A stretch of DNA of 34,726 bases, taken from positions 1-34,726 of the IMG/VR virus record IMGVR_UViG_3300044733_001251; one strand, 5' to 3'. Position 1 is the first letter of the stretch. The number at the start of each line of letters is the position of its first letter. The stretch is from a virus. The translations under genes and the position numbers were made by a program. Shown here one piece after another: positions 1 to 13,339 of the stretch. The notes under the pieces are model-generated. The model was not told the origin of the DNA. It worked only from the letters and a program-made list of their open reading frames with translations, and made no database searches.

Positions 1-238
1 CTCCTGCGCCAAACCGGGCACTTTTAGTTTCAAAATCGCGGGTTGGTAACGCTGGGGTACTACAATTTGAGAATGGCATCGATCAATTGCAAACCCCGGT
101 ATTACAAAATGCATTCTCATTTATGGAATTTATACGTTGTTGGCCATTTTCAGGACCGTATCGGCCCCGTTTGGGGTCGTTTTGGGGTCGTTTGGGGTTT
201 TTGGCGGGGTCGTTTGCCCGTATTAGGGCGGTGGCGGG
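1..238. other. Left-edge stretch without an assignable gene
   Basis: Two weak reading frames cross the edge. On the minus strand a frame runs from an ATG at 120 off the left end (about 40 codons, no good ribosome binding site). On the plus strand a frame is open from base 3 to 302. Neither product resembles a family I recognise. From about 150 onwards the sequence becomes runs of G with GGGGTCGTT-like words, similar to 2891-3290. If the genome is circular, the next minus-strand genes to the left would be expected to be terminase, because the neighbouring HNH gene usually sits there. Nothing in these bases shows that directly. Confidence 0.25.
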
Positions 239-685
239 TCAATCGCGGGGCGGGGCGGGGTCGTTGTTGGTCATTAGCTGGGGCCAATCCCCCGGTTTGT
301 AGTCAATCGCCCCCCGGTTACTGTAATAACGAAAAATTCTACGTTGTTCGATCCCGGTTTTGACCGAATGACAAGCCCCGCATAAGGTTTGGAATAGATT
401 GTTAACAAACCCGCCCGGGCCAATGGTTCGCCATGGGATCACATGGTCAACATGATCACCCAGCGTGACGCGCCCCGCCAATTGGCACGATTGGCACAAT
501 GGTTGTTTTGACAATTGACCCGCCCGGATCGTTTGCCAAACCCGGGTTTTGTATTCCCGGTCGTTTTCCCGTTTGATCATGTTGACCCGGGGCGGGGGGG
601 CATGATCCATGCACATTGATGACCCGGGGGTTGTTGGTTGTTTGCACCTATATATAGAGCATTGATCACGGGGGGTTGTTGGCAT
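239..685 (-). CDS. HNH endonuclease
   Basis: A 148-residue HNH nuclease, likely a DNA-nicking or cutting enzyme. Such enzymes next to phage terminase genes assist DNA packaging at cos sites. The core motif is visible: two zinc-knuckle pairs (C64/C67 and C102/C105) flank GDHVDHVIPW (residues 76-85) and a NNL...CGACH segment (95-106) supplying the Asn and final His. The N-terminus has three more cysteines (C9, C14, C25) that could form a further small zinc site. The frame extends upstream to 736, but the ATG at 685 was chosen because the extra 17 residues are hydrophobic and atypical. It is transcribed away from the plus-strand gene run that starts at 872. The family call is firm; the packaging role is inferred from known gene neighbourhoods, since terminase is not in the window. 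Confidence 0.85.
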   Translation of the reverse strand: MPTTPRDQCSIYRCKQPTTPGSSMCMDHAPPPRVNMIKRENDREYKTRVWQTIRAGQLSKQPLCQSCQLAGRVTLGDHVDHVIPWRTIGPGGFVNNLFQTLCGACHSVKTGIEQRRIFRYYSNRGAIDYKPGDWPQLMTNNDPAPPRD

Positions 686-829
686 GATTTCCCAGGTAAA
701 AAATAAAAACCAAAATTTGAATTGTTTGGTTTGCAAAAAATAGCCGTTTTCCCAAAATGCTCAAATTTTAGCGGGTTGTAAGGGTTTCCCCTATAGAGTA
801 TTTTGGGGATAACTCAGACACTATTGATA

Positions 830-854
830 CGGGCAAATTGTGCCCGGGTTTTTT
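830..854 (+). terminator. Leader terminator-like hairpin upstream of the first plus-strand gene
   Basis: A perfect 6-bp stem CGGGCA / TGCCCG (830-835 and 841-846) with a 5-base loop is followed by GG and six T (849-854). This is the form of an intrinsic terminator reading rightward, yet it lies only 18 bases before the ATG at 872 and downstream of the only intergenic space available for a promoter (686-829). It could attenuate the operon or end a short leader RNA. I could not identify a convincing promoter upstream; a TATAGA-like box lies near 791-797. Confidence 0.5.
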
Positions 855-871
855 AATACTGGGGTTTGCAA

Positions 872-1135
872 ATGAACAAACAAATTTACCAATCAACCCG
901 CCGATCCATTCGCGACAATGGTTTGCGCTATACCGCGCAACATGCAATTGATACAGACAACATGGAAATGTTGTTCGTTTGCGATGAAATTGCTAATACC
1001 CTCAAACAAACCGATTGGTTGGCAATGCGGGTGCAATTTGCCCGATCCGAAAAACCCGCCATTGCAATCAAATTGACATGCAATGAATGGTTGTTGCGCC
1101 GTGAAATGAACAAACCAATTGTTTGGGGGGCTTGA
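872..1135 (+). CDS. Hypothetical protein, 87 aa
   Basis: First gene of the plus-strand run in the odd-composition segment. The product is soluble and begins MNKQIYQSTRRSIRDNG. It has no motif I recognise and no membrane segment. The ATG at 872 is preferred to the upstream in-frame TTG at 866. Codon use is extreme and matches its neighbours here: Leu is nearly always TTG, Gly and Pro lean on GGG and CCC, and AG-containing codons are rare. Its stop lies two bases before the ATG of the next gene, implying one transcript. Confidence 0.6.
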   Translation: MNKQIYQSTRRSIRDNGLRYTAQHAIDTDNMEMLFVCDEIANTLKQTDWLAMRVQFARSEKPAIAIKLTCNEWLLRREMNKPIVWGA

Positions 1136-1137
1136 TC

Positions 1138-1305
1138 ATGCTGCACAAAATTTTGATCGGGTTGGTTTGCACGGGCGGGGTTGTTCTTTTCGCCATTGGT
1201 TCGCTGGGGTTGGCCCTAGGGATTGGCCCCGGGTTTTTGTCGTTGGCAATGGTAACCATTGGCGGCTTTGCTGCAATCGGGTTTTCCGGTTTGCTAGCGG
1301 ATTAA
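1138..1305 (+). CDS. Small hydrophobic membrane protein, 55 aa
   Basis: The product is almost entirely hydrophobic, with two likely membrane helices (about residues 5-27 and 30-52) joined by a short glycine/proline turn (GIGPG) and no charged cytoplasmic domain. The ATG at 1138 lies two bases after the upstream stop, so translation is probably coupled. A longer in-frame start at 1123 (TTG) would overlap the upstream gene and is less likely. Function is unknown. It could be a holin-like, superinfection-exclusion or other inner-membrane peptide, but nothing in the sequence decides between these. Confidence 0.6.
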   Translation: MLHKILIGLVCTGGVVLFAIGSLGLALGIGPGFLSLAMVTIGGFAAIGFSGLLAD

Positions 1306-1331
1306 ATTTTCACATTACAGGATAAAACATC

Positions 1332-2204
1332 ATGCAAATTAAATCATTCAAAACCGCCCCCAAATTTGCAAAATTGCAGGATTTGGCAATTGCCGTGCAA
1401 ACGGGGGATGATCACGTTATCGCCCGTGCATTGTATAAATTGCAAATTGACAACGATTTTTCCGGCCCGGGTTGGCAAACAAGCTTTGCAAAATTAGCAG
1501 ATACTTTTGCGAGCAAAACCCCCCAATTGGCAATTTTTGCGCTGGGGGGCAATAGTAAATTGCCGTTTGTCTCGTTTTCCACTATTCCCGGGGTTACATG
1601 CCCGGGGGCGGGGGATTGCATCGATTTTTGCTATTCATACCGCGCATGGCGATTTCCATTGGCGTTTGCCCGAATGATCCAAAACGCTTATTTGATGCGG
1701 TTTGCCCCCGATCAAATCGCACGGGCATTTGCAGCGATTGCAGCAAAACGACCCGGGGGGTTTGATTTCCGTTTGTATGTTGACGGGGATTTTGCAAACG
1801 GGGGTGATGTCGCTTTTTGGATGTCGTTGTTATCGTCAACCCCAAACGCGCGCGCATACGGTTATTCAAAATCGTTTCATGCGCTATTGGGGTTTGACGT
1901 TGTTGGCGTTTGGCCCTCAAATTATCAATTGAACATTTCCGGGGGTCACAATGCATCCCGGGCAATTGTTAACGCTGTCAAAAAATTGCCGATCACCCGG
2001 GGGGAATTTATCGCGGTTTCGATTGGGCGAAAAGTGAAAAGCACCGATCATGGAACCCCCAGCGTTAACGCTGCAATCCGGGCCAAATTTCCGGGGGTTA
2101 AAGTTTTCCCGTGCCCGGGGGCATGCGGATCATGCACGGGGGCGGGGCATGCATGCGGATTGCCCAAAATGAAAAATCGCGTGATAGCAATTGCAATGCA
2201 CTAA
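1332..2204 (+). CDS. GP88-like cysteine-rich phage protein
   Basis: A 290-residue protein resembling the phage GP88 family (named for mycobacteriophage gene 88). The family signature appears in order: GGNSKLPFVSFSTIPG (72-87), CPGAGDCIDFCY (90-101, Cys 90, 96 and 100), a central FDFRLYVDGDF segment, a later YGYSKSFHA segment, and a C-terminal Cys cluster (C261, C265, C268, C275). Seven cysteines in two spaced clusters suggest a metal or iron-sulphur site; the biochemical role of the family is, as far as I know, not established. The start has a purine-rich site (ACAGGATA) upstream. Codon use is unusual, with TTG for Leu and CCC/GGG runs. Function is not claimed beyond family resemblance. Confidence 0.65.
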   Translation: MQIKSFKTAPKFAKLQDLAIAVQTGDDHVIARALYKLQIDNDFSGPGWQTSFAKLADTFASKTPQLAIFALGGNSKLPFVSFSTIPGVTCPGAGDCIDFCYSYRAWRFPLAFARMIQNAYLMRFAPDQIARAFAAIAAKRPGGFDFRLYVDGDFANGGDVAFWMSLLSSTPNARAYGYSKSFHALLGFDVVGVWPSNYQLNISGGHNASRAIVNAVKKLPITRGEFIAVSIGRKVKSTDHGTPSVNAAIRAKFPGVKVFPCPGACGSCTGAGHACGLPKMKNRVIAIAMH

Positions 2205-2215
2205 AGGATTAAAAA

Positions 2216-2455
2216 ATGACTGAAATTCTATTACATGACATGGAACGATTGAATTATCGGGCAGCATCAAAATGGATCTATTCCCTCAAACCAATTGATT
2301 TGTATGATTTTTTGGCTGATACGGGGGCCGATCCATGGGGCAAACCGGGGGCCAATACCCGGGCGGGGTTAATCGAATTTGCGTTTTTGCACATTGATGA
2401 CGTTGGCCCGTGCATTTTGCTTGATTGGATTGAACAAACGGGGGGCCAACAATGA
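2216..2455 (+). CDS. Hypothetical protein, 79 aa
   Basis: A small acidic protein beginning MTEILLHDMERLNYRAASKW. An AAAGGA ribosome binding site lies just before its ATG, and its stop overlaps the ATG of the next gene (ATGA at 2452-2455), so the two are translationally coupled. It is predicted soluble with mixed helix; the segment around residues 23-50 (KPIDLYDFLADTGADPWG) has no family I recognise. It shares the AG/CT-poor composition of the segment. Confidence 0.6.
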   Translation: MTEILLHDMERLNYRAASKWIYSLKPIDLYDFLADTGADPWGKPGANTRAGLIEFAFLHIDDVGPCILLDWIEQTGGQQ

Positions 2456-2625
2456 CTAATCAACAAATTTGCGATTTTTACGATAACAACCCAAATTTGA
2501 CAATTGCCCAATTGGCGCAAATGCTCAGAATGACGACCGATCAAGTTAAAACAATCCTACAAACCCCGCCCCCCGTGCAAATGTACGGGCGAAACCGGGG
2601 TCGTTCAAACAATTACAGGGGCTAA
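2452..2625 (+). CDS. Small putative helix-turn-helix protein, 57 aa
   Basis: A 57-codon gene that opens on the ATGA overlap with the preceding stop and ends two bases before the next ATG. Residues about 15-36 (NLTIAQLAQMLRMTTDQVKT) have the spacing of a helix-turn-helix: a helix, a short turn around MTT and a second helix. The tail is rich in proline, arginine and asparagine. This suggests a small DNA-binding or regulatory protein, but the call rests on pattern alone. The tight packing between two genes supports it being translated. Confidence 0.5.
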   Translation: MTNQQICDFYDNNPNLTIAQLAQMLRMTTDQVKTILQTPPPVQMYGRNRGRSNNYRG

Positions 2626-2627
2626 TC

Positions 2628-2849
2628 ATGGGGAAATTTTCTGACATTGACATAGAATTAACTTACGGGTCAAAACCAACAACAACCCCCCGGATTGGAT
2701 CGTTTGGGGTTTGCCTAAATGACCCCAGCAACCCGCCCCGGTTTTTTACGTTGTTGCAAATTATCGGGGGTTTGGGGTTGTTTGCCCCGGTTGATGACCC
2801 CGCTACAATCGCACAATTCCCGATTGATGACTATTGGCAATTGACGTAA
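2628..2849 (+). CDS. Hypothetical protein, 73 aa
   Basis: Last gene of the plus-strand run. The product starts MGKFSDIDIELTYGSKP, is soluble and contains a hydrophobic centre (FFTLLQIIGGLGLFAPVDDP, about 39-58) that is too short and polar-flanked to be a clear membrane helix. Its stop codon is immediately followed by the intrinsic terminator at 2849-2890, which marks the end of the operon. No family recognised. Confidence 0.55.
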   Translation: MGKFSDIDIELTYGSKPTTTPRIGSFGVCLNDPSNPPRFFTLLQIIGGLGLFAPVDDPATIAQFPIDDYWQLT

Positions 2850-2890
2850 ACCCAAAACGACCCCGGGCCAAACCGGGGTTTTTTTGGGTT
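2849..2890 (+). terminator. Intrinsic terminator of the left plus-strand operon
   Basis: A nested hairpin: an outer stem AACCCAAAA (2849-2857) pairs with TTTTGGGTT (2882-2890), and an inner stem CCCCGG (2861-2866) pairs with CCGGGG (2873-2878), with the loop GCCAAA between them. Seven T follow the inner stem. It overlaps the stop codon of the preceding gene. Confidence 0.8.
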
Positions 2891-3290
2891 TGCTAAGTTA
2901 GTTAGCGCTCACTTCATAATTGGCCCCGTTTGCGGGGTTGTTTGGGTTTTGCTGGGGGTTGGCCCGGGTTGGTTGGTTGGCCCGTTTGCGGGGCGATTGG
3001 CCCCCAGCGATTGGGCGATTGTTTGGGCGGGGGTTTGGCCCCGTGCGATTGGCCCCGGGTTTTGCTGGGGTTGGTTGGCCCGATTGATTGGCCCGGGATT
3101 GATCGGGCAGGATTGGTGCAATTGGGGCGGGTTGGCCCGGGTTACTGGGGGCGATTGGCGGGGGTTTGCATCGATTGGGGCGGGTTGGTTGGCCCCCATT
3201 AATTGGGGCGGGGTTGGCCCCCGGGCGATTGGGCGGGGCGGGGCAATTGACCCCCAATCATGCCAACCCGGGCGGGGTTTGTAATGATTT
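2891..3290. repeat. Low-complexity GGTTGG/GGCCCG-rich non-coding block
   Basis: About 400 bases built from a few degenerate words (TTGGCCCGGG, GCGATTGG, GGTTGGTTGGCCC, GGGGCGGGG). The plus strand is rich in G and T. In the stretch 2941-3285 I count about two AG and three CT dinucleotides. Reading frames are open on both strands because TAG and TAA are almost absent, not because the block is coding: the predicted products are Gly/Trp/Pro-rich low-complexity strings and different frames are equally open. There is no clean tandem period. Runs of G at regular spacing could form G-quadruplexes on the plus strand. Confidence 0.7.
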
Positions 3291-3354
3291 TCCCGTCATT
3301 TTGCATTTTTTGTAGGTCATTGGGTCACATTTTCAATGGCACTAGGGGTAAACC

Positions 3355-3386
3355 CTGTAATACTGTGTTTCCATCCAGTAATACTA
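3355..3386. repeat. Pair of 11-bp direct repeats, CWGTAATACTR
   Basis: CTGTAATACTG (3355-3365) and CAGTAATACTA (3376-3386) are spaced 21 bp start to start, close to two helical turns, as expected for a protein-binding operator. They lie in gene-free DNA between the left segment and the terminator of the early operon. The function is unknown. A related AATACTGGGG word occurs at 855-864 before the first plus-strand gene. Confidence 0.4.
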
Positions 3387-3439
3387 GGGCCAGAAAAGTC
3401 CAAAAGCCAACTACGCATTTCGGAAAAAAAATTTAGAAG

Positions 3440-3466
3440 AAAAAAAATGCCTAGCTGGACTAGGCA
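3440..3466 (-). terminator. Intrinsic terminator of the minus-strand early operon
   Basis: Read on the minus strand, TGCCTAG (3466-3460), loop TCCAG and CTAGGCA (3454-3448) form a perfect 7-bp stem followed by seven T (3447-3441). It lies about 50 bases past the stop of the last gene of the operon (3514). The plus strand carries A rather than T after the stem, so it should work only leftward. Confidence 0.85.
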
Positions 3467-3513
3467 AAAAATTTCCCTTTCCGGAAATCTGGAAAAAATA
3501 CAAAAAAATTAGG

Positions 3514-3714
3514 TCATGCCTTCTCAAATTTTCTGACCAGATTTGCTGATGGTTTCCAAGAACCTTCGTCAATCCTGTAGGAAATCACATCTTTGCTCTG
3601 TGCTTTGTAGCCAGAAGCGTATGCGGCTCTAGCAACTTGCAATGCTTTTGCTTTTGTATCGAATGGCCCTTGCGAACCCCAATACCATCCTGATTGTTTC
3701 TTAGTGAGTGGCAT
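3514..3714 (-). CDS. Hypothetical protein, 66 aa
   Basis: Last gene of the early minus-strand operon. The product begins MPLTKKQSGWYWGSQGPFDT and is basic and soluble. The GWYWGSQGPFDTKAKALQVA portion resembles small phage proteins in which a WYWGSQGPF-type strand is followed by an AxxxARAAY helix, but I cannot name a family. Its ATG overlaps the upstream stop (TAATG), so translation is coupled. The operon terminator follows. Confidence 0.65.
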   Translation of the reverse strand: MPLTKKQSGWYWGSQGPFDTKAKALQVARAAYASGYKAQSKDVISYRIDEGSWKPSANLVRKFEKA

Positions 3715-3917
3715 TATTTTAGGAATCTTAGTTTGTATTTGATGGAATCTGTCAGGTCAAGCAGTTCATCCACGATGTTTTGCAGTTCGCTTTCCTGTGG
3801 GAATCCGGGCATCTTGCGATAGCTTTCGATCTGGTCACAGACGTACTGAACAAGCGCCAAACCATTTTCCCCCAGAAAAAGTGCCTTTTCCGCGAAAATT
3901 ATTTTCGTGTCTCTCAT
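3714..3917 (-). CDS. Hypothetical protein, 67 aa
   Basis: Begins MRDTKIIFAEKALFLGENGL and looks all-helical, with acidic centre and a basic end (KYKLRFLK). It is joined to its neighbours by ATGA upstream and TAATG downstream overlaps, which supports the start and the reality of the gene. No recognised family. Confidence 0.6.
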   Translation of the reverse strand: MRDTKIIFAEKALFLGENGLALVQYVCDQIESYRKMPGFPQESELQNIVDELLDLTDSIKYKLRFLK

Positions 3918-4138
3918 GCTTCCCTCGCTTTTAGCATTGCTTGGCGGCAGTCGTTCCAGCCTTGAATGTACTCAAGGGTCTCGCTCGTGTCGGTGTGGTG
4001 AATGGCATCGGGCACGGCTGGCTGTGCTGCAAGGGCTTCGCTTAATCGGCGTAGCTCGGCAGCGGCTTGTTTATGATGTGGTGCTGTGTGATATGCATCT
4101 AGCTCATTAGCAAGTCGCATAGCTTCAGATTGTTTCAT
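3914..4138 (-). CDS. Hypothetical protein, 74 aa
   Basis: Starts MKQSEAMRLANELDAYHTAP. Two helical segments (about 3-35 and 52-73) flank an alanine/proline linker, and the C-terminus (YIQGWNDCRQAMLKAREA) resembles the end of many small accessory phage proteins. Overlaps both neighbours by ATGA. Function unknown. Confidence 0.6.
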   Translation of the reverse strand: MKQSEAMRLANELDAYHTAPHHKQAAAELRRLSEALAAQPAVPDAIHHTDTSETLEYIQGWNDCRQAMLKAREA

Positions 4139-4509
4139 GTGTTCTTCTCCTTAAGGGTCCGCATCGTCATTGCTATTGCCATATTTTTTGTCAGCGCCAT
4201 TTCGTCTATGGCTTTAATCTGCTCATCCGTCAGCCCAACCCATTGCCGCTGTGCTGCGGGTGGGGTGGCATAGAGGAACGTGTGAGGCGGATTCCAGTCA
4301 GGCCAAAGCTCATGTTTATAGATGTCACCCAATGCATCCATCCACGCCACAGGCTCCTGCACAGGTGCTGCAAGGGCTTGCTTGATGGCGGTGATGGCTT
4401 CGCACATCAGTTCTGCCGCCTCACCAACTTCAGCGCCGTTGGTCATATCAACCGCTAACTCAGTTTCCAACGCCTTCAGCGCCAGCTTCAATGCTTTTTT
4501 GTCAGTCAT
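4135..4509 (-). CDS. Hypothetical early phage protein, 124 aa
   Basis: Begins MTDKKALKLALKALETELAV. The ATG at 4509 is chosen over the upstream ATG at 4545 because it forms an ATGA overlap with the small zinc-ribbon gene just upstream. The organisation is an N-terminal helix (1-47), an AAPVQEPVAWM linker with a Trp/Pro-rich segment, then PPAAQRQWVGLTDEQIKAI leading into a C-terminal helix. This arrangement recurs in uncharacterised early proteins of Burkholderiales phages. No function is known to me. Confidence 0.65.
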   Translation of the reverse strand: MTDKKALKLALKALETELAVDMTNGAEVGEAAELMCEAITAIKQALAAPVQEPVAWMDALGDIYKHELWPDWNPPHTFLYATPPAAQRQWVGLTDEQIKAIDEMALTKNMAIAMTMRTLKEKNT

Positions 4510-4601
4510 TTGATGATCCTCAGAAAAGCGCCGCATCGAGCGCACTTGTACAAAGGTTGGCCCTCAACAGGCTCCCACATGTGTTGTTTGCAGTCCATCA
4601 T
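4506..4601 (-). CDS. 31-residue zinc-ribbon-like miniprotein
   Basis: A short gene in the gap between its neighbours. Its ATG (4601) overlaps the upstream stop as ATGA, and its own stop overlaps the next ATG in the same way. The product MMDCKQHMWEPVEGQPLYKC... carries C4, H7, C20 and C23, a CxxH...CxxC arrangement suited to one zinc ion. A second ATG directly follows the first. The position in an unbroken chain of coupled genes is the main support. Role unknown, possibly protein-protein or nucleic-acid contact. Confidence 0.55.
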   Translation of the reverse strand: MMDCKQHMWEPVEGQPLYKCARCGAFLRIIK

Positions 4602-4852
4602 GTCCCCCTTGTTCCCCAATCGGGCATCTTTTCGTTTGCCGCAAGCGCCTCAAGTTCAAGGTACAAGTCGTTTAGTTCATGGCTGTTAAACGTGCGGCTG
4701 CAATAGCAACCCCAAAAATAAGCGGCTTCTTCCCACAAGCATTCTTTAAACAGCCTGTCCCGCACAAAAGCGCCGGGGCTGTTGGGCATATAGCATTTCA
4801 AAGGGTTTTCAATTTCGGCTCTCATAGCCGCTGCAATGGCTGTGTAGTTCAT
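4598..4852 (-). CDS. Hypothetical protein, 84 aa
   Basis: Begins MNYTAIAAAMRAEIENPLKC. Rich in aromatic residues (WEEAAYFWGCYCS, around 40-52) with an acidic C-terminal half ending PDWGTRGT. No family recognised. Coupled to both neighbours by ATGA overlaps in the recombination-gene portion of the operon. Confidence 0.6.
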   Translation of the reverse strand: MNYTAIAAAMRAEIENPLKCYMPNSPGAFVRDRLFKECLWEEAAYFWGCYCSRTFNSHELNDLYLELEALAANEKMPDWGTRGT

Positions 4853-5133
4853 GTTTGTCCTATCTTGTTAAGTGTCCACTCAAGCAGTTGTTGCTGAGTG
4901 ATGTCATAGTAGTCAACAAAACCTTTGTTTCCAAGCCCGTGGAAACCCTTATTGCCACGATGATGTTCTACGCATAAAGGAATAAGTGTCTTGTAGTCGC
5001 CTTTGCCCCAACCCCCTGCTCTTAGGTGGTGTAACTCCACTGGCCCCGGCTCATGTTCGCCATGCAAGTGATGACATAGCGCACAGCCAAGGCTTGCCAC
5101 TTTGCCTTTATGAATAATTTCAGCGTTCTTCAA
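4849..5133 (-). CDS. Ref-like / HNH RecA-dependent nuclease
   Basis: A 94-residue HNH-type nuclease like the Ref family (phage P1 Ref, RecA-dependent nuclease), which cuts DNA in RecA filaments and enhances recombination. Visible motifs: GCALC (16-20) as the first metal pair, ELHHLRAGGWG (34-44), IPLCVEHH (51-58) and HGLG (65-68). There is no ATG upstream of the conserved region. The longest start is TTG at 5133, overlapping NinB by 14 bases; a GTG at 5100 is an alternative. It sits directly after ninB and two genes after a VRR-NUC-like nuclease, which supports a recombination role. It could instead be a general HNH nuclease. Confidence 0.7.
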   Translation of the reverse strand: MKNAEIIHKGKVASLGCALCHHLHGEHEPGPVELHHLRAGGWGKGDYKTLIPLCVEHHRGNKGFHGLGNKGFVDYYDITQQQLLEWTLNKIGQT

Positions 5134-5431
5134 GCGTTACCCCGTTTGTGTTGGCCCAATACAACAGCCACTCAGTAAAACTAATGGCTTGCTCTTTGGT
5201 AAACCGTCTGCTTTGCAGTCCTAGCTGTACTATCCGCAAACCATCAATGCTTGGCATGACTTTGCTGACAGATGCTGACTCTCCGTTCTCATGCGCCCAC
5301 TGGTCTATCAGGTATCGTTTCCATGACTCTGTTGACCAGCGGCTACCGTGCAGCTTTGACTGTTTGGCAATCTGGTTGATGATTGCGTGATACAACTTTT
5401 CTTGCTCACGGCTTTTCATGTCAGGTGTCAT
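5120..5431 (-). CDS. ninB: NinB/Orf-family recombination protein
   Basis: A 103-residue protein of the lambda NinB (Orf) family, a recombination mediator that binds single-stranded DNA with SSB and can stand in for RecFOR. Family features: REQEKLYHAIINQIAKQ near the N-terminus, WSTESWKRYLIDQWAHE in the middle, MPSIDGLRIVQLGLQSRRFT then SFTEWLLYWANTNGV at the C-terminus. The start at 5431 makes an ATGA overlap with the upstream gene; a second Met (MKSREQ) follows four codons later. Length is slightly below the 140-plus residues of lambda NinB. Confidence 0.8.
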   Translation of the reverse strand: MTPDMKSREQEKLYHAIINQIAKQSKLHGSRWSTESWKRYLIDQWAHENGESASVSKVMPSIDGLRIVQLGLQSRRFTKEQAISFTEWLLYWANTNGVTLEER

Positions 5432-5691
5432 AAAACACCAATCATGCGTAAAGCGTCTTCAGGGCCATCAATGCGATGCAAGCCACCACCACACCAATTC
5501 CCAAAAAACTCTTGCTGTAACCTCGTTAAAACCTTTTTAGGGCCATCCTTGATCTCAACCAAGTATGTCTGACCGTTGTAGCCAACTAAGAGGTCAACAG
5601 GTAGGCCAATAATCCAGACGTAAGCGCCAGCACCTCTAAGTGCGGATACGATTTGCGCCTGATTTGCGTCCACACGGCTTGCGTATCTCAT
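5428..5691 (-). CDS. VRR-NUC-like nuclease
   Basis: An 87-residue protein with a minimal PD-(D/E)xK nuclease fold of the VRR-NUC type, usually a junction or flap-cutting enzyme. The motif order fits: VDANQAQIVSALRGAGAYVW (5-24) as helix and strand, GLPVDLLVGYNGQTYLVEIKDG with D30 and the E-I-K core (about 26-47), then LTRLQQEFFGNW. The ATG at 5691 is chosen because it overlaps the upstream stop by ATGA; the frame extends to 5739 without support. It probably works with NinB and the Ref-like protein encoded next. Confidence 0.75.
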   Translation of the reverse strand: MRYASRVDANQAQIVSALRGAGAYVWIIGLPVDLLVGYNGQTYLVEIKDGPKKVLTRLQQEFFGNWCGGGLHRIDGPEDALRMIGVL

Positions 5692-5918
5692 GCTGCATCC
5701 TTTTTCTTTTGTAAATTTGCCTCGCAACAATCTTTGCAAACAAATTTATAAAAACCAGATGCAACTTTTTGATGTCCACCAAGTATGTGTTTGTCTTTTT
5801 GGCATGACCAACAAGTTTTTTTATTTCTTCCCCATTGTTGTTTTTGATAAACTTCTTCTGACTTTACGCGAATAGCCATTTTTTTTGGGTCGTATGAAGT
5901 TCCAAGGTTGTCGCTCAT
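5688..5918 (-). CDS. Small zinc-finger protein, 76 aa
   Basis: The C-terminal half carries two CxxC pairs, CWSC (36-39) and CKDC (61-64), spaced by 21 residues with a GGH in between, followed by CC-EANLQKKKDAA. This is a typical four-Cys zinc ribbon. The N-terminus is basic. ATGA overlaps join it to both neighbours. Likely nucleic-acid binding or a structural adaptor; no specific family assigned. Confidence 0.65.
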   Translation of the reverse strand: MSDNLGTSYDPKKMAIRVKSEEVYQKQQWGRNKKTCWSCQKDKHILGGHQKVASGFYKFVCKDCCEANLQKKKDAA

Positions 5919-6121
5919 TCCAATTCTCCGTCTTGTAGTTTTTTCATGTAATCACGAATTCTTGCGACAGAACCCGTACCGTACCGTTTTTCCAACCATT
6001 CCATTCTGACTTGCGTCAGAACTTTCTGCTTGGTCACTTGGTAGGTGCAAAGCAATACCCTTGCTTCGCCCAACTCAATCTGGTATCTGTCGCCAGCGTC
6101 TTGAATCTGTCTGCGTGTCAT
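5915..6121 (-). CDS. Hypothetical protein, 68 aa
   Basis: Begins MTRRQIQDAGDRYQIELGEA. The ATG at 6121 is preferred to 6151 because it overlaps the upstream stop by ATGA. It is mostly helical with a basic patch (QVRMEWLEKRYGTGSVARIR) that looks capable of binding nucleic acid. No family recognised. Confidence 0.6.
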   Translation of the reverse strand: MTRRQIQDAGDRYQIELGEARVLLCTYQVTKQKVLTQVRMEWLEKRYGTGSVARIRDYMKKLQDGELE

Positions 6122-6306
6122 GGGTAGGGCCACAGTTTTATCAAGCCCCACTTCATCTTGGGGTACTTGCGAACAACATCAATCTTTTGCAGACGCTGGA
6201 TGCTGGCCCACACTTGCTTTGTTGTCCAGCAGGTGATTTCTTCAATTTCCCTGCTAGACAGTTCGCCGTGTTCAAGCAGTTTCTTCAATGCGTAAGGTCG
6301 TTTCAT
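6118..6306 (-). CDS. Winged-helix-like protein, 62 aa
   Basis: A short basic protein. HGELSSREIEEITCWTTKQV followed by WASIQRLQKIDVVRKY has the layout of a winged helix: helix, SSREI helix, TTKQVWASI recognition helix, then a beta wing. This suggests a small DNA-binding protein, possibly a regulator or a partner of the DUF1376 replication protein encoded just upstream, with which it overlaps by ATGA. Confidence 0.6.
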   Translation of the reverse strand: MKRPYALKKLLEHGELSSREIEEITCWTTKQVWASIQRLQKIDVVRKYPKMKWGLIKLWPYP

Positions 6307-7082
6307 ACTTTCCTCAAAACTTGGTTGATCTGTTGACGAATGTGTTCTGGCATGGGCGCAGCCTTCTGACGGTCTGCATCAATTTTAAGCAGCACAGGGT
6401 CACGACCAGAGTGTTGGGCAGGGACTGTTGTTCGGGCAACGTCAGCGGCTTGTTGGGCAAAGGTTTGCTTGGGTGCTACCCACTCTGCTTTAAAACTTGT
6501 CCAGCCTCTTTCAACGCATTCAGTGATTGCCCTTGCAAGCGACCAGTTCGCCTTGTCTGCTTCCCGCTTGATGCCAGTTAAGGCAGTGACCGTTACTGGT
6601 GCTTTCTTTGCTTTGCGTAAAGCAAGGAAGTCTACCCACACTGCTTCTTCAACATTGACAGGACAAACAGCGATAGCTGTCTCTTTCTTTGGTTTATGGT
6701 TATTGGTTAGTGGGTTATGGTTAATGGTTGCTATTGGGGTAGCAATAGGGGGGCTATTACCCTCCCCATCGCCACCCTTTAACCACCTCTTAGCCGCCCC
6801 ACGTTTTCCATCTTCAATGAACTTGCGATACTTTGCAATTTCATCGTCAGCCCTTGGATTTATGAACCCATCGTCAGTTGACACAAAGAACTCATTTAAG
6901 ACAGTTAATACGTCTTGTTCATGCTCTCTCATGCCTATCTGACGAGCAATGTCCCGCTGTTTAATTGGTTGTTCATGCAAATAGTAATGGTCAAGAAGTC
7001 GGCGAAAAGCCAAGTCTTCCATTTGCGAAAGATGGTGGGTGTGACTTTTGTAGTCACCAATGTGGAACTGGTAATAGTGCAT
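6303..7082 (-). CDS. DUF1376 phage replication protein
   Basis: A 259-residue protein with an N-terminal DUF1376 domain (about 1-95): YYQFHIGDYKSHTHHLSQME leading into DLAFRRLLDHYYLHEQPI, a winged-helix-like fold found in phage replisome organisers and YdaU-like proteins. A low-complexity linker follows (IATPIATINHNPLTNNHKP), then a region with a conserved WVDFLALRKAKKAPVT segment and a C-terminal helix. It probably binds the phage origin or recruits host helicase. It heads the tightly coupled part of the early operon, with a promoter-like sequence about 100 bases upstream. The origin itself is not identified. Confidence 0.8.
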   Translation of the reverse strand: MHYYQFHIGDYKSHTHHLSQMEDLAFRRLLDHYYLHEQPIKQRDIARQIGMREHEQDVLTVLNEFFVSTDDGFINPRADDEIAKYRKFIEDGKRGAAKRWLKGGDGEGNSPPIATPIATINHNPLTNNHKPKKETAIAVCPVNVEEAVWVDFLALRKAKKAPVTVTALTGIKREADKANWSLARAITECVERGWTSFKAEWVAPKQTFAQQAADVARTTVPAQHSGRDPVLLKIDADRQKAAPMPEHIRQQINQVLRKV

Positions 7083-7141
7083 TAAAGCATCCTCGCAACC
7101 CTCCAGAAGAAACGCACGGCAGGTGGGAGGTTCACTTTTTA

Positions 7142-7161
7142 GCAGAGTAGCTACTCTCTGC
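7142..7161. repeat. Imperfect inverted repeat in the leader of the replication operon
   Basis: GCAGAGTAG and CTACTCTCTGC form an inverted repeat with a perfect 12-bp palindrome GAGTAGCTACTC at its core (7145-7156). It lies in the 110-base gap before the DUF1376 gene, just downstream of the predicted start of transcription. No T-run follows in the direction of transcription, so it is more like an operator or an RNA leader hairpin than a terminator. Confidence 0.45.
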
Positions 7162-7179
7162 CTAGCCGGGTTTCATAAA

Positions 7180-7209
7180 ACTATACCACCACTTAAGCCC
7201 TGCTGTAAA
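7180..7209 (-). promoter_or_regulatory. Candidate sigma70-type promoter for the DUF1376 operon
   Basis: On the minus strand TTTACA (7209-7204) and TATAGT (7185-7180) are separated by 18 bp, close to the TTGACA-N17-TATAAT consensus. Transcription would start near 7173 and run through the inverted repeat at 7142-7161 into the DUF1376 gene. It overlaps the 3' end of the upstream gene. This is a pattern match only. Confidence 0.4.
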
Positions 7210-7579
7210 TAGTAATCGGATTGTTGTTTTGGTACTTCTGCTGCAAGTGCGCCAGTTCTTGTCTGCTAAACACTATTGATGGCCCACGCCAATCAAACGC
7301 ATTGCCTGTTGACCTTGCTGACCCGTCATCCCAAACATCAAAATTCTCTTGTTGCATTTCAACAACATTGACTTTGCCTGTCAATTCGTGATGGTAGTTG
7401 TACTTTCCATCAGATTGCAACACTTTCTTGACGCACACAATAATGCCATCTGCAACCAATGCGTCTTTAATTCTTGCTGCTGAGTCTAGATATTTGCCTG
7501 TCATGCGCTTGGTGATTGTTCTATGGCTTAGAGGGCCATTTTCAAGCTGCTTCAAGTAGTAGAGTTTTGCTGGTAACAC
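7193..7579 (-). CDS. Putative winged-helix DNA-binding protein, 128 aa
   Basis: The N-terminal half (KLYYLKQLENGPLSHRTITK, RMTGKYLDSAARIKDALVAD, then GIIVCVKKV) has the helix, turn, helix and wing pattern of a winged-helix protein. The C-terminal half contains the tryptophan-bearing FDWRGPSIVFSRQELAHL. The longest start is GTG at 7579, which overlaps the upstream gene by 28 bases; the next ATG would remove part of the helix-turn-helix. It may regulate the early region, as it lies close to the divergent promoters. Confidence 0.6.
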   Translation of the reverse strand: MLPAKLYYLKQLENGPLSHRTITKRMTGKYLDSAARIKDALVADGIIVCVKKVLQSDGKYNYHHELTGKVNVVEMQQENFDVWDDGSARSTGNAFDWRGPSIVFSRQELAHLQQKYQNNNPITIYSRA

Positions 7580-7743
7580 AGTGTCAATTCTTTCTTTGTG
7601 GTGAGTTCAATGGCCCGAGCTAAGAGAGCAACAGTTGCCGCCTCAAAGTCACCGGGATCAAAAGTGTACTGCTTGACAGCTTGGATTGCAGTCACGCAAA
7701 GCTCCTGTGCTGCGGCAGTTTCATGGTGGTCTGGTGTGTTCAT
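7552..7743 (-). CDS. Hypothetical protein, 63 aa
   Basis: First gene of the leftward early operon. The product starts MNTPDHHETAAAQELCVTAI and is acidic and helical. The ATG at 7743 is used because the frame upstream of it would run into the divergent gene at 7849 and through its leader. The ribosome binding site is weak. No family recognised. Confidence 0.5.
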   Translation of the reverse strand: MNTPDHHETAAAQELCVTAIQAVKQYTFDPGDFEAATVALLARAIELTTKKELTLCYQQNSTT

Positions 7744-7848
7744 GCTGGCAAGAGTATCATTGTTGACCCGGTTGTCTATTAGGGTTTGTCCTAGTGTTTT
7801 TTTTGTTGATGCGTCATAAGATTGAGGCTCAACAAGACAGGAGTTCAC
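7744..7848. promoter_or_regulatory. Divergent early control region
   Basis: The 105 bases separate the two early operons, which are transcribed away from each other, so at least one promoter in each direction is expected here. I see a TTGACC (7763-7768) and a TAAGAT (7817-7822), but no pair with correct spacing. A run of eight T (7797-7804) and an ACAGGAG ribosome binding site for the plus-strand gene are clear. No repressor gene flanks the region, unlike a lambda-type switch. Confidence 0.45.
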
Positions 7849-8007
7849 ATGAGTACATTTCAAATTCGTTGCAAGGCCCGTGAGTTGTTTAAGACTTACG
7901 ATGCGCCACCAGCAGTAATCCAGCAGTACCAACGCAAGTGGGTGCGTTCTGTTATCCAGCTTGGGCCTAACTGGTTGCTTGCTGAACCAGTAAGGAAAGC
8001 AGCATGA
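7849..8007 (+). CDS. Hypothetical early protein, 52 aa
   Basis: The product MSTFQIRCKARELFKTYDAP... ends WVRSVIQLGPNWLLAEPVRKAA. Small basic proteins with a WVRSVxxLGxxWLLA core are common as the first gene before phage recombinases. The start at 7849 has an ACAGGAG site at good spacing and is preferred over 7822. Its stop overlaps the ATG of the ERF gene. Function unknown. Confidence 0.65.
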   Translation: MSTFQIRCKARELFKTYDAPPAVIQQYQRKWVRSVIQLGPNWLLAEPVRKAA

Positions 8008-8618
8008 ACGTCTATCAAAAACTTAACACTGCTCGTAATCAGTTTCACAACACTGAAATTAAAAAGTCAGGCCACAACAAGTTTGCTGGCTATAAGTATT
8101 TTGAACTTGGCGACTTTATTGTTCCAGCACTAAGCATCTTTGATGAAGTTGGTTTAACAAGCGTTATCAGCTTTGGCAAAGAGTCTGCTGACATGCGGAT
8201 TATCAATACTGACAAGCCAGAAGAAATGATTGTGATTGAGTCTCCCATGTCGGAAGCTAATCTTAAAGGCTGTCATCCCGTGCAGAATCTTGGCGCTGTG
8301 CAGACCTACATTCGCAGATACTTGTGGGTTGCTGCGCTTGAGATCGTAGAACACGATGCTCTTGACTCATCTAAGCCTGTTGAAGAAAAGAAAGTCATCA
8401 TCACACCATCACAGGGTATTGCAGACACTATTCCTCCAGAGGAAATGCAGTACCTTCAAGAATTAGCGATTGATCTAATCGCTAACGTAGCTGAAGGAAA
8501 CCCAAAGCAAGCCCTTGACAGGCTTGACTCTGAGAATCTTGAGGCTGATCAAAAGGTTGCACTGTGGTCATTGCTAGATAGCAAAACCCGGTCGGCTATT
8601 AAAAAAGCAAAGGAATAA
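8004..8618 (+). CDS. ERF-family single-strand annealing recombinase
   Basis: A 204-residue protein of the ERF superfamily (P22 Erf), which anneals complementary single strands during phage recombination and end repair. The hallmark N-terminal block is clear: NTARNQFHNTEIKKSGHNKF, AGYKYFELGDFIVPAL, and later NLGAVQTYIRRYLWVAALEI (about 95-115). The C-terminal third (140-204) is a charged helical region that probably mediates partner contacts. It overlaps the upstream gene by ATGA and is followed at once by an SSB-like gene, a typical ERF-SSB pairing. No paired exonuclease gene is seen. Confidence 0.85.
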   Translation: MNVYQKLNTARNQFHNTEIKKSGHNKFAGYKYFELGDFIVPALSIFDEVGLTSVISFGKESADMRIINTDKPEEMIVIESPMSEANLKGCHPVQNLGAVQTYIRRYLWVAALEIVEHDALDSSKPVEEKKVIITPSQGIADTIPPEEMQYLQELAIDLIANVAEGNPKQALDRLDSENLEADQKVALWSLLDSKTRSAIKKAKE

Positions 8619-8620
8619 AT

Positions 8621-8875
8621 ATGGAATACGACAACAGCAATCGCGGAGCCATCTTTAAAAACGATGACAAGCAACAAGACAACCATCCAGACTACAAAGG
8701 AAGTCTGAACGTCAATGGTGTTGATATGTGGGTTTCTGGATGGCTTAAAACGTCTGAGAAGACGGGTAAAAAGTTTATGAGCTTGTCGGTTAAGCCCAAA
8801 GAAGATAGGCCCGTTAAACAGGCTTCTAGCCCTAAACGTCAGCCTGTTGTGATGGATGATGACATTCCATTTTGA
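8621..8875 (+). CDS. Small SSB-like protein
   Basis: 84 residues beginning MEYDNSNRGAIFKNDDKQQD, with the core HPDYKGSLNVNGVDMWVSGW followed by KKFMSLSVKPK and a disordered tail ending in the acidic DDDIPF. That tail copies the C-terminal tip of bacterial SSB, which recruits SSB-binding proteins. The strand-rich core fits a minimal OB-fold. It follows the ERF gene by two bases. The family is a known phage type often annotated as conserved hypothetical; the SSB role is inferred from tail and context. Confidence 0.65.
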   Translation: MEYDNSNRGAIFKNDDKQQDNHPDYKGSLNVNGVDMWVSGWLKTSEKTGKKFMSLSVKPKEDRPVKQASSPKRQPVVMDDDIPF

Positions 8876-8968
8876 TTAACGGGGAAAAGCGGATGCTGGT
8901 TACTTGTCCTAGGCAAGGAACACAAAGAGACACCAGTGCAGCGAGTACCCCACCTACAAGGACAAAAC

Positions 8969-9280
8969 ATGAATTTAAAAGACCTTTTTGGCGGCAATCC
9001 TTTAGACCTTTTTCCAAGGGTTAGAAAGGACGATCCCATCACATCTTTTGAAGCAGCAGACTCAATCGTAGAGTCGGCATCTAAACATTGGAATGTTATT
9101 TCCGATTGCTTAAAAGAACATGGGCCACTTGGAAAAGATGGCATTGCAAGGTTAACTGGCCTTGATGGAAATCAAGTTGCTAGGCGCATGAACGAAATGA
9201 AAGTTATGAACATGGTGTTCCTAACAGGCAAAACAGTTAAATCAAACAGTGGTCGTAATGAAAGAGAGTGGACAGTATGA
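8969..9280 (+). CDS. Winged-helix-like protein, 103 aa
   Basis: Starts MNLKDLFGGNPLDLFPRVRK. The segment RKDDPITSFEAADSIVESAS and the following CLKEHGPLGKDGIARLTGLD plus GNQVARRMNEMKV match phage winged-helix proteins that begin with an R-x-D-P-x-T-S-x-E-A-A motif. The ATG at 8969 has an AAGGA site upstream and avoids the unlikely extension to 8936. Likely DNA-binding, possibly regulatory or replication-linked. Confidence 0.65.
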   Translation: MNLKDLFGGNPLDLFPRVRKDDPITSFEAADSIVESASKHWNVISDCLKEHGPLGKDGIARLTGLDGNQVARRMNEMKVMNMVFLTGKTVKSNSGRNEREWTV

Positions 9281-9495
9281 AAACAATTGAAGCATACCTA
9301 ACAGATGACGGTAAGATTTTTAAATCACTTACTGAGGCCAGAGTGCATGAAGAAATTCAAAAACATATGCCAGAAATAAATGCGTTTATTCATTCTGAAT
9401 CTTGCAAATACGACAATGTTGCACACAGAAAAATTGTGGAAAACACTTTGCTTGCATGGATTTTCTGGAAAGCAGATGGAGGTATTAACCAATGA
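9277..9495 (+). CDS. Hypothetical protein, 72 aa
   Basis: Starts MKTIEAYLTDDGKIFKSLTE at an ATGA overlap with the upstream gene and ends in an ATGA overlap with the MazG-like gene. The opening (a strand, then FKSLTEARVHE) is typical of small phage proteins with a beta hairpin followed by a helix. Function unknown. Confidence 0.65.
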   Translation: MKTIEAYLTDDGKIFKSLTEARVHEEIQKHMPEINAFIHSESCKYDNVAHRKIVENTLLAWIFWKADGGINQ

Positions 9496-9809
9496 AAGAA
9501 ACACAATCGTATAGCAGCACTGAGTTTGCTGTAATGCAGTGGGCAAAAGACCGAGGCATTTACGAAAACGGTACAGCACTAGGCCAAGCAAAAAAGACGC
9601 TTGAAGAAGCTGGCGAGTTGCTTGCGGCTGTTGCCAGTAATGACCGTGAGGAAATTGCTGATGCTATTGGTGACGTTATGGTTACGCTGGTCAACGTAGG
9701 TGTGTTGTGCGACTTGGACTTGCGCCAATGCTTCTATAACGCCTACAAAATCATAGAGCCGCGCAAAGGCTACATGAACAAAGCAGGTCAATTTGTAAAG
9801 GAGTCGTGA
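9492..9809 (+). CDS. MazG-like nucleotide pyrophosphohydrolase
   Basis: A 105-residue all-helical NTP pyrophosphohydrolase. The metal-binding signature is present: E38-E39-xx-E42 (KTLEEAGELL) followed by E54-xx-D57 and D61 (EEIADAIGDVMVTL). Such enzymes hydrolyse (d)NTPs or modified nucleotides, and in phages may clean nucleotide pools or lower host alarmones. It lies in the recombination operon, overlapping both neighbours. Substrate cannot be told from sequence. Confidence 0.8.
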   Translation: MKETQSYSSTEFAVMQWAKDRGIYENGTALGQAKKTLEEAGELLAAVASNDREEIADAIGDVMVTLVNVGVLCDLDLRQCFYNAYKIIEPRKGYMNKAGQFVKES

Positions 9810-10120
9810 TGCTTTGCAATACTTGTACAAATCCAACTCATTGTGTAAATCTTGGGCATTGCGGTATGCGTATTAGTACACAAGCAACTGTTCATGTGTC
9901 TGCCCTTGATAAACAGGTATCTGGTAGTCACTACAAAGACAAAGGCATCCAGCCGATTGTCTACATCCATGCAAATGATCTAGGCTTTTGTGAAGGCAAT
10001 GTTGTGAAATATGTTACTAGACATAAATCCAAAAACGGCGCTGCTGACATACGCAAAGCCATTCACTACCTAGAGTTATTGCTTGAATTGGAATACAAAG
10101 ATGACACCCCTGCTGCCTGA
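9809..10120 (+). CDS. DUF3310 family protein
   Basis: The C-terminal 65 residues match DUF3310: DKQVSGSHYKDKGIQPIVYI then CEGNVVKYVTRHKSKNGAAD and LRKAxHYLELLLELE-type helix. Phage members of this family are often labelled nucleotide kinase-like by analogy to T7 gp1.7. The N-terminal 35 residues carry four cysteines (C3, C6, C12, C18 in CNTCTNPTHCVNLGHC), a probable extra zinc site. The ATG at 9809 (TGATG overlap) is used; a GTG one codon earlier is possible. Its neighbour encodes the MazG-like enzyme, consistent with nucleotide metabolism. Confidence 0.75.
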   Translation: MLCNTCTNPTHCVNLGHCGMRISTQATVHVSALDKQVSGSHYKDKGIQPIVYIHANDLGFCEGNVVKYVTRHKSKNGAADIRKAIHYLELLLELEYKDDTPAA

Positions 10121-10286
10121 TGTTTGTCGGTGTGAACCAGTGTTCCCTGATAACTATTGCAAAAACTGTCGGCGTTGGCTTAGTCACCCTGAACAAGTGA
10201 CTAGTCCACGCACTCCAATTGTCAGGGTAGAAACAAGCACATCAGAATCTTGCTACTACATCCCAGTATCACTCTTGAAGAAATAG
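10101..10286 (+). CDS. Small Cys-rich protein, 61 aa
   Basis: Starts MTPLLPDVCRCEPVFPDNYC inside the end of the DUF3310 gene. The Cys pattern CRC...CKNCRRW suggests a small zinc-binding knuckle. It is the last gene of the plus-strand operon. It ends inside the endolysin gene on the other strand, so the two converging operons overlap by 18 bases with no room for a terminator. The start is uncertain. Confidence 0.55.
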   Translation: MTPLLPDVCRCEPVFPDNYCKNCRRWLSHPEQVTSPRTPIVRVETSTSESCYYIPVSLLKK

Positions 10287-11278: not shown

Positions 11279-11886
11279 CAATTACCCCTTTTGGTCAACA
11301 TTGCGCTGGCGATCTCCAGCATGAATTTTACTTGTTGAATGTCTGTCGGTGGTTCTGCCCACCCGACCGTGACCTGTCCAACAAACCGATGCGAGTCTGG
11401 CGGTACGCTGACCCGGCAGGTGAACGTCACGCCCTTTTCGATGTACCACAGGCCCACCTCAGACTGAGCATAGCGGTACTCGCTACACGGAATCTCGTTG
11501 GTCATCAGTTTGACCACATCGGCGTTGTTGGCAGAGTTCTGACTGAACAGCCCCACATCAATGTCTTCAATCGTCTTGTCGCGCCCGTCCTTGGTGTAGG
11601 CTTTGTACAGCACCCGGCTGTTAAACAACGGGTTGACCTTGAACACCGCCACCACGGTTGCGCCCGTCTTTTTGAGCAGCATGGAACTGGCATCATCGGC
11701 CCTTGCAGCGTTGATCTCTGGCAGCTTCTTGGACTCTTTGTAAGCGTCAAACATGAAGGTCTGGTTCTGCCAAAGGAAGTACCCGGCAAAGGCCACCACG
11801 CCCATCACAAGGATGGCAAACAGCTTGAACGGGCTGTCTACATAGGACAGCACTTTGTCAATGATGGACTCAGGCTTTTCGCTCAT
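11278..11886 (-). CDS. Membrane-anchored protein with external domain, 202 aa
   Basis: One membrane helix near the N-terminus (PFKLFAILVMGVVAFAGYFL, about 19-38) is followed by about 160 residues predicted to be outside the inner membrane. Two cysteines (in NEIPCSEYRY and VTFTCRVSV) could form a disulphide. It lies directly upstream of the holin, coupled by overlaps on both sides. Position suggests a lysis or membrane role, for instance a spanin-like or holin-control protein, but the fold is unlike a coiled-coil i-spanin and I do not recognise a family. Confidence 0.6.
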   Translation of the reverse strand: MSEKPESIIDKVLSYVDSPFKLFAILVMGVVAFAGYFLWQNQTFMFDAYKESKKLPEINAARADDASSMLLKKTGATVVAVFKVNPLFNSRVLYKAYTKDGRDKTIEDIDVGLFSQNSANNADVVKLMTNEIPCSEYRYAQSEVGLWYIEKGVTFTCRVSVPPDSHRFVGQVTVGWAEPPTDIQQVKFMLEIASAMLTKRGN

Positions 11887-12329
11887 CTCAAGTGCTTCAT
11901 GTAAAGAACAATGCCGCCTACCAGAAGGCCAGCAAGGACGATTACTCCCAATCCGATGGCTATGTACTCAACCATGTCTTCAAGCTGCCGCTGCCGCCTC
12001 TTTGCTTCTCTGGCGGCTTCTTCCTTGGCTTCCCTGCGCTTACGGGCAGCAGCGGCTTGGAACTTCTGCCAATCACTCCACATCCCCGGACGGCCAGCGT
12101 AGACCATCCGTTCACGCAGTTCCACTTCTTGCGCGTTCAGTTGCTCCAACGCCATGAATTCTTCCATGTCGCTGCCGCCACCCTTCTTGGTGGCCCGTTC
12201 TTGGATCACTGCCTTGTTGTCAAAATAGTCAAACACCCGTGAGCCGAGCGCAGACAGTTCTTTGCCGTTGGCTAGAGCGCCTTTGATGACTGCAAAAGCA
12301 GCGTTAGCAGCAGCAAGTTCGGCAATCAT
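11883..12329 (-). CDS. C-tail-anchored coiled-coil protein, 148 aa
   Basis: An alanine-rich N-terminus is followed by a strongly charged helix (about 88-117, ARKRREAKEEAAREAKRRQR) and a single C-terminal membrane segment (IAIGLGVIVLAGLLVGGIVL, about 123-142). The orientation is the reverse of an i-spanin, with the coiled coil likely cytoplasmic. ATGA overlaps link it to the 30-residue peptide upstream and the 202-residue membrane protein downstream. Function unknown; virion-associated or lysis-related are both possible. Confidence 0.6.
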   Translation of the reverse strand: MIAELAAANAAFAVIKGALANGKELSALGSRVFDYFDNKAVIQERATKKGGGSDMEEFMALEQLNAQEVELRERMVYAGRPGMWSDWQKFQAAAARKRREAKEEAAREAKRRQRQLEDMVEYIAIGLGVIVLAGLLVGGIVLYMKHLR

Positions 12330-12418: not shown

Positions 12419-12594
12419 TTCAATATCCACACAGCCGAAAAAATCGTGCCACCCATTCCCAAAATCATTATGCCAGCAGTCTTTAGCATGATGTTCTCAA
12501 TCCTCTTAAGGCGTGCGTTGATTTGTTCATAGCGCAAAGCACACACAGCCTCATGTGAGTTCAACCGGGCTTCTGTTTCGTTAATCGTGTTCAT
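12415..12594 (-). CDS. XhlA/holin-like small membrane protein, 59 aa
   Basis: Starts MNTINETEARLNSHEAVCAL. An N-terminal amphipathic, coiled-coil helix (3-36, with RYEQINARLKRIENIM) is followed by one C-terminal membrane helix (TAGIMILGMGGTIFSAVWIL). This layout is that of XhlA/hemolysin-type lysis accessory proteins. The ATG at 12594 overlaps the upstream stop by ATGA and is preferred to the upstream frame extension. It begins a run of five membrane proteins leading to the endolysin. Confidence 0.6.
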   Translation of the reverse strand: MNTINETEARLNSHEAVCALRYEQINARLKRIENIMLKTAGIMILGMGGTIFSAVWILK

Positions 12595-13052
12595 TCTGCG
12601 GGTGTCCAGTTTGCATTGGGTTGTACAGGCCAATTCAAGTTCCCCGGAACCGGATTGATGGCGATGTTGCGCACCACGTTGCGATACACAACAAAATCAT
12701 TTGCGTTGCTCAGATACGGGTTAGAGACAGCAGGGTTGGCAACGTCAGGAATGGTCGCCCAATCTGTTTCTTGCAGACGGAAAACGGCATTTTGTTTGTT
12801 GACTTCCGCTGTTGGAACAGGTGGCGGCTCAGTGTCTTTGACAACCCAAGCCTGATACGCATTGTTGGCCCACTCAGGCAAAACGCTGATTTGTTCGTTG
12901 GCGTTTGTTTTGTCTTTAAATTCAATGAACCCTTCAACATCAAACCACTGCAAAGCGTGTACGTCATCTGGCGTGCCGCTCCAAGTTAGATTTGAAATGG
13001 GTTTGTCATCCACATACACCGTTTGGTCTGAGGGAATAATTGTCAGTTTCAT
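12591..13052 (-). CDS. Tail fibre assembly-like protein
   Basis: A 153-residue protein. The N-terminal half starts MKLTIIPSDQTVYVDDKPIS and contains ALQWFDVEGFIEFKDKT, the form of XkdW-like and other fibre-linked phage proteins. The C-terminal half has FRLQETDWATIPDVANPAVS followed by ANDFVVYRNVVRNIAINP, the L-x-x-TDW...PDV...YR-x-x-R pattern of tail fibre assembly chaperones. It follows the large fibre gene, where such chaperones usually lie. Likely helps fibre folding or attachment. Confidence 0.7.
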   Translation of the reverse strand: MKLTIIPSDQTVYVDDKPISNLTWSGTPDDVHALQWFDVEGFIEFKDKTNANEQISVLPEWANNAYQAWVVKDTEPPPVPTAEVNKQNAVFRLQETDWATIPDVANPAVSNPYLSNANDFVVYRNVVRNIAINPVPGNLNWPVQPNANWTPAE

Positions 13053-13339
13053 CGTGTCAACCTTGCTTGTTGTTGAGCTTGCAACAGGACGTTTGCGGTG
13101 AAGTCGTTTGATTTGACCATTTCATTCCTGAATGATTCAACTGCCGCCCCTGTCTGTTTTTGTTGGTGCGCGTTTTCAATCAGCATGATGGGCAACCAAG
13201 CCACAGCACAACCCCATTCTTCAATTTCCGCGCCCGTGTTGGGATTGCTACCCGCCACTTTGATGAACCAACCGCATTCAAGTTCTTTGCAAGGCGCAAA
13301 CCCGTTCAATGGGCAATTATTTTTTGGCTTCATTTGCAT
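13049..13339 (-). CDS. Hypothetical protein, 96 aa
   Basis: Starts MQMKPKNNCPLNGFAPCKEL. Three Cys near the N-terminus (C9, C17, C22) and one in WGCAVAWLPIMLIE. GGAG lies five bases before the ATG at 13339, which favours that start over 13333. Small proteins with CPLNxFxPCKxxxCGWF are seen beside phage fibre genes. It lies between the large fibre and the fibre-assembly gene and is probably associated with them. No known function. Confidence 0.6.
   Translation of the reverse strand: MQMKPKNNCPLNGFAPCKELECGWFIKVAGSNPNTGAEIEEWGCAVAWLPIMLIENAHQQKQTGAAVESFRNEMVKSNDFTANVLLQAQQQARLTR

Follow-up and report, generated by a model that had tools for sequence, protein, structure and literature searches.

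Positions 1–3338 of the DNA analysed here (the window, a viral stretch of 34,726 nucleotides) are the terminal segment of the chromosome of a cos-type siphophage, at the end distal to the terminase genes terS and terL. About three-quarters of the AG/CT pairs are missing from this terminal ~3 kb, whereas the remaining genome is normal. The location at the cos end and the long-term maintenance of the bias are well supported. As its cause we tentatively favour ongoing selection at the DNA level against AG/CT in the DNA that enters the cell first, a reading that we rate at somewhat below an even chance.

Results

An earlier sequence-only reading had described the left 3.1 kb of the window as depleted of AG and CT. 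We calculated dinucleotide odds ratios in 500-base windows, and found that the left segment separates from the rest: the symmetrised AG/CT odds ratio was 0.22–0.40 over positions 1–3500 and 0.56–1.20 elsewhere. In positions 1–3290, 108 AG and CT dinucleotides were observed compared to 406 ± 16 expected from mononucleotide shuffles (z = −18.9), while windows of the same 3,290 bases taken elsewhere in the contig contained 295–428, so the depletion is real and had been understated. The earlier counts held as well, with 13 AG and 13 CT in the GP88 gene, 2 AG and 3 CT in positions 2941–3285, and leucine encoded by TTG in 14 of 18 cases. The reported richness in G/C runs was also borne out, since runs of four or more G or C occurred at 26 per kb in this segment (hereafter the island) and at 2.3 per kb outside it, and CCCGGG was found 21 times inside and 0 times outside. 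The GA odds ratio of the island was low too (0.55–0.79), and AA and CC/GG were raised. AG was depleted in all contexts, most strongly in AAGA (0.06) and GAGN (0.13–0.19) and hardly at all in TAGT and TAGG. A milder AG dip (0.56–0.82) was seen at positions 12501–14500, near the start of a large ORF region (13351–17259).

The AG/CT loss was strand-symmetric, affected genes and spacers alike on both strands, and was evenly spread over whole genes. Avoidance at the RNA level was rejected because both strands and the spacers are affected. The earlier view that the bias is a property of the DNA and not of the proteins therefore stands for coding and non-coding DNA on both strands, but has to be given up in its second half, since amino-acid pairs are altered as well. 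By change-point analysis, the island runs from ~28 nt inside the physical end (position ~29) to position ~3338. The left border is earlier than the proposed 150, because the change-point places it so close to the physical end. Chi sites, which were looked for as zone boundaries at the island borders, were not found there.

The preference for G/C runs is separate from the avoidance of AG: at glycine third positions flanked by two G, the base was G in 67 of 84 cases, compared to 7 of 88 in relatives. In the GP88 gene (positions 1332–2204), GGG made up 70 of 107 glycine codons in the AG-poor clade and 3 of 24 in the relative L006.

Several contigs locate the island at a physical end. The window and contig L004, which come from different metagenomes, have an identical first base, CTCCTGCGCC, while L359 begins at a homologous one. 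About 20 terS contigs start at GTCAATT; in most of these the start lies ~104 b upstream of terS, six of them sharing this exact distance. Contig L002 contains portal, terL and terS on the minus strand and continues into the island, and across the junction it reads GGCGCAGGAG, CAGGCGCGGG and GTCAATTC in succession, the middle 10 nt of which are absent from both types of contig end. Because of the common contig starts and the 10-nt gap spanned by L002, position 1 of the window is a cos end, the left-hand terminus of the virion chromosome. The gap suggests a 10-nt 3' overhang, and the loss of these 10 nt from both end types fits 3' overhangs that were polished away. The gene order HNH, cos, terS, terL is that of HK97-like cos phages with a ~10-nt 3' overhang, of which we infer the polarity here. 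The island (1–3338, delimited by odds ratios, counts and change-points) lies on the side of cos away from the terminase genes and starts within ~30 nt of the physical end in L002 together with the window and in L359, where it starts at base 11.

The genes of the island point inward on the plus strand except for that of an HNH endonuclease (239–736, minus strand; Pfam PF01844, PHROG 144), which lies beside the terminase end and is AG-poor too; the main identified genes to the right are on the minus strand. The plus-strand genes are a small ORF (866–1135) with a weak match to PHROG 7646, a small hydrophobic ORF (1123–1305) conserved in L003–L005, the GP88-family gene (1332–2204; PF17338, 2.1e-14), a small ORF (2216–2455) recognised only as an ORF, a small ORF with a possible, non-significant HTH (2452–2625) that is also present in L115, L349, L355 and L359, and a small ORF (2628–2849) so far seen only in AG-poor islands (L003–L005, L349, L354, L355 and L359). 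A terminator-like hairpin with a T run (2848–2891, plus strand; inverted repeat I6, 89% complementary) ends this operon. It is followed by the inner border of the island (2892–3290), which by its sequence and repeats is non-coding, G/T-rich and repeat-rich, and whose homologues in L003–L005 contain 36–40% G and 10–16% A.

The GP88 product scored 54.4 bits against the curated cut-off of 24.4 for PF17338, which places it in the family. Its predicted structure (pLDDT 74) weakly resembles a radical-SAM-like barrel; the top VIA matches, viperin (Z 6.3) and TsrM (Z 5.5), are below the safe level, and Foldseek with GP88 gave no confident match. Cysteines 90/96/100 and 261/265/268 are conserved, the pattern sought for radical SAM proteins being a CX3CX2C cluster. 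Pfam and PHROG profile scans of the ORFs tested gave no match resembling A1, of the T5 pre-early genes A1/A2. A host origin of GP88 was rejected, as the gene occurs in only 4 contigs from ~85k species genomes.

Six or more further phage contigs carry an AG/CT-poor segment of 2.4–3.7 kb, each time in the identical position, and the carriers are water-dwelling bacterial viruses that form one family. By terL, the isolate nearest to them is Methylophilaceae phage P19250A. Searching IMG/VR with the GP88 protein returned 19 relatives, of which four (L002–L005) are fully depleted and two (L015 and L016) partially, the GP88 genes of the others lying at 0.64–0.95; the gradient among the relatives runs from 0.23 to 0.95. 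Searching with terS added L349, and the small ORF at 2628–2849 used as a query added L354, L355 and L359, all of them AG-poor at the matching place. L349 carries a Pfam DUF7227 gene (2373–3098) in the place of GP88, with Cys motifs reminiscent of it, and L359 has an island of this kind and gave no GP88 match; the two contigs are apparently near-copies, each with a poor segment of 3,689 b. GP88 was rejected as the cause of the depletion because L349 and L359 have the island without it. In L003, the HNH-side piece of the island (1–388) is inverted relative to the window.

An AG-free 14-mer was used to scan DNA for genomes with the same dinucleotide signature and picked up one unrelated contig, the actinophage-like G001 (L079; L105/L106, IMGVR_UViG_3300048912_000331; 21,053 b, GC 67%). 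It lacks GP88, its AG odds ratio is 0.23 throughout, and its other dinucleotides differ from those of the island. The tape-measure relatives of G001 have ordinary AG. The idea that AG depletion is common in phages was rejected, with no other strong case in ~260 loci before L349, L355 and L359.

Comparison of related islands showed how the bias is kept. Island pairs are 12–25% diverged, and the AG/CT fraction at differing sites was 0.06–0.09 in the island compared to 0.12–0.18 in the flank. Of the AG dinucleotides deduced from the agreement of relatives, 17% were kept in the clade of the window, whereas 70% of GA and 92% of CC were kept. Lost AG became AA, GG, TT, TG, CG or GC, by transitions and transversions at both positions. 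Residue pairs that make AG unavoidable ([KEQ][VADEG]) numbered 2–3 where 9.7–10.7 were expected and 4–25 in relatives, and after codon shuffling the observed/expected (O/E) ratio of AG plus CT was 0.66 for GP88, 0.69 for neighbouring genes and 1.01 for far genes. Because the depletion outlasts 12–25% divergence, uses all substitution types and changes the protein, we infer that it is held by continuing selection on the DNA, strong enough to alter protein sequence. An extreme mutation bias could also cause the loss of AG at the protein level.

The O/E ratio of 6-bp palindromes was 1.17 in the island and 0.34 in the rest of the window, so the island shows no avoidance of Type II restriction sites, whereas the avoidance outside it is what restriction would lead one to expect. 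By codon shuffling it was 1.12–1.37 for GP88 genes and 0.35–0.60 for distant ORFs, irrespective of AG depletion; a pure protein effect was rejected, as the excess survives this shuffling. A palindrome-exempt zone of ~3 kb surrounds GP88 in most of ~70 loci (L006–L020, L115–L177), nine loci being without the exemption in a grouping made after the data were seen. The zone tracks GP88, and an alternative in which it is set by the distance from terL was rejected. Wherever terL was found, GP88 is located upstream of it and on the other strand. In many loci, exact DnaA boxes (TTATNCACA) occur within 1 kb upstream of GP88, with 41 and 23 in two 0.5-kb bins (64) compared to 0–7 elsewhere, and this cluster is perhaps an origin. 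In L005, DnaA-box clusters are located at both island borders (9162–9271 and 11810–11938).

Discussion

By analogy with the polarity of lambda and T7, packaging of the present phage would begin at the terminase side, so its island end would be packaged last and would be the leading, first-injected end, and the plus-strand genes of the island (GP88 or DUF7227, and the small ORFs) would be the first expressed. Spacer acquisition in staphylococci, according to work of Modell in 2017, reportedly favours the first-injected cos end. Inside the cell, the leading segment might meet a DNA-acting factor that reads AG/CT, for which a host nuclease, the adaptation machinery and the phage's own host-DNA-degrading nuclease are speculative candidates. 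Only the leading segment would be purged because later DNA would enter once the factor had been blocked or spent. No AG/CT-specific factor was found. Several observations count against this scheme: the leading end of T7 has no AG drop and that of T5 a mild one; the GP88 zone tolerates palindromes more than the remaining genome does, although exposure to Type II restriction would predict the reverse; the gain of G/C runs is not accounted for by AG avoidance; and G001, AG-poor throughout, shows that avoidance of AG can occur without a link to an end. The exemption from palindrome avoidance and the preference for G runs are thus left unexplained by an AG-reading agent.

One of the closest known parallels is the first-step-transfer DNA of T5 (L269), where AG is 0.79 in positions 1–10219 and 1.11 beyond, the shift coinciding with the known border. 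Three further phages of the T5 type (L270, L271 and L272) change in the same direction. In T5-like first-step-transfer DNA, AG and GA are lower and CG and GC higher than in the rest. An AG drop was looked for at the leading end of T7 and was not seen there. Like the island, the T5 segment is terminal, carries early genes of its own as well as DnaA boxes, is non-coding at the inner border and has lowered AG, and the shared ends and the spanning contig fix the island at a virion-DNA end, as in T5-type transfer. However, T5 carries its segment in a 10-kb direct repeat, whereas the ends here fit cos with a 10-nt gap and no large direct terminal repeat carries the segment; the AG drop of T5 is mild, and no shared genes were found. 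The analogy is only partial because palindromes are avoided more strongly in the T5 segment than elsewhere in T5, while the island tolerates them. The chlorovirus enzymes M.CviQII and Nt.CviQII are an AG methylase and a RAG nickase; AG-specific DNA enzymes thus exist, and RAG contexts rank with the most strongly depleted ones of the island, but no such genes were recognised here and CAG is depleted too. Phages avoid restriction palindromes (PMC6286503), as the rest of this genome does, whereas the island shuns a non-palindromic motif of two bases, at one end only. Depletion of PAMs also occurs in phages (PMC12174588, PMC4246573) and likewise reduces a short non-palindromic motif on both strands; the island, however, loses AG in all contexts and not in one PAM, and CC/GG, the I-F PAM, is enriched.

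Among the four options raised by the sequence-only reading, motif avoidance is the best supported and a local mutational or modification process remains the main rival. On this account, AG/CT would be removed from the terminal segment without selection, through processing of the end, the proximity of a replication origin or damage linked to transcription. The sharp borders at the physical end, the DnaA-box cluster upstream of GP88 and the strongly asymmetric base composition of the spacer agree with such a process; it is nevertheless rather unlikely, as AG was lost by both classes of substitution at both positions, its replacement is lineage-specific (AA/GG in the islands, AT/AC/CG in G001), and the depletion is strand-symmetric and extends to amino-acid pairs. 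Whole genes that are evenly biased, leading palindromes that vary between lineages and the lack of a longer motif common to the lineages make it improbable that AG-free, G-run-rich DNA is needed for a structural or binding role (a two-step injection stop, packaging, an origin or silencing), although the repeat-rich non-coding inner border, the abundance of G/C runs and the DnaA clusters at both L005 borders, as in T5 first-step DNA with its injection stop signal, would suit it.

Recent import from a wholly AG-poor phage lineage, followed by amelioration, has in its favour that G001 is AG-poor across 21 kb, that the GP88 relatives are graded, and that the island is common to L005 and the window while their terminase small-subunit families differ and their structural ends are unlike. 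Yet G001 has no GP88 and differs in its other dinucleotides, GP88 is nearly absent from the species genomes, and the bias persists in islands that diverged in parallel with their flanks (the island is 84–88% identical to that of L003, the flanks 72–91%) and is graded in relatives at the same position, so we consider this option very improbable. The island lies at the very start of the window contig, which might have pointed to a chimeric assembly or contamination; such an artefact is refuted, since the same island occurs in independent contigs, the sequences of L002, L005 and L349 continue past the left border or into both flanks, and the contig starts at cos.

That phages avoid restriction palindromes and PAMs is established. 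A two-base motif purged fourfold in the cos-proximal 3 kb only, with proteins changed to match, points to an AG-reading agent that acts in a position-dependent manner and has not been described previously. It is conceivable, though unlikely, that a widespread bacterial (or phage-encoded) factor reads AG/CT in fresh linear phage DNA, and that phages respond by purging the first-entering segment, down to amino-acid pairs, and rarely the whole genome. A dinucleotide bias at one end could mark the injection-leading end of uncultured phages from sequence alone, and could likewise mark pre-early genes for host takeover and counter-defence, for which GP88 and DUF7227 become candidates.
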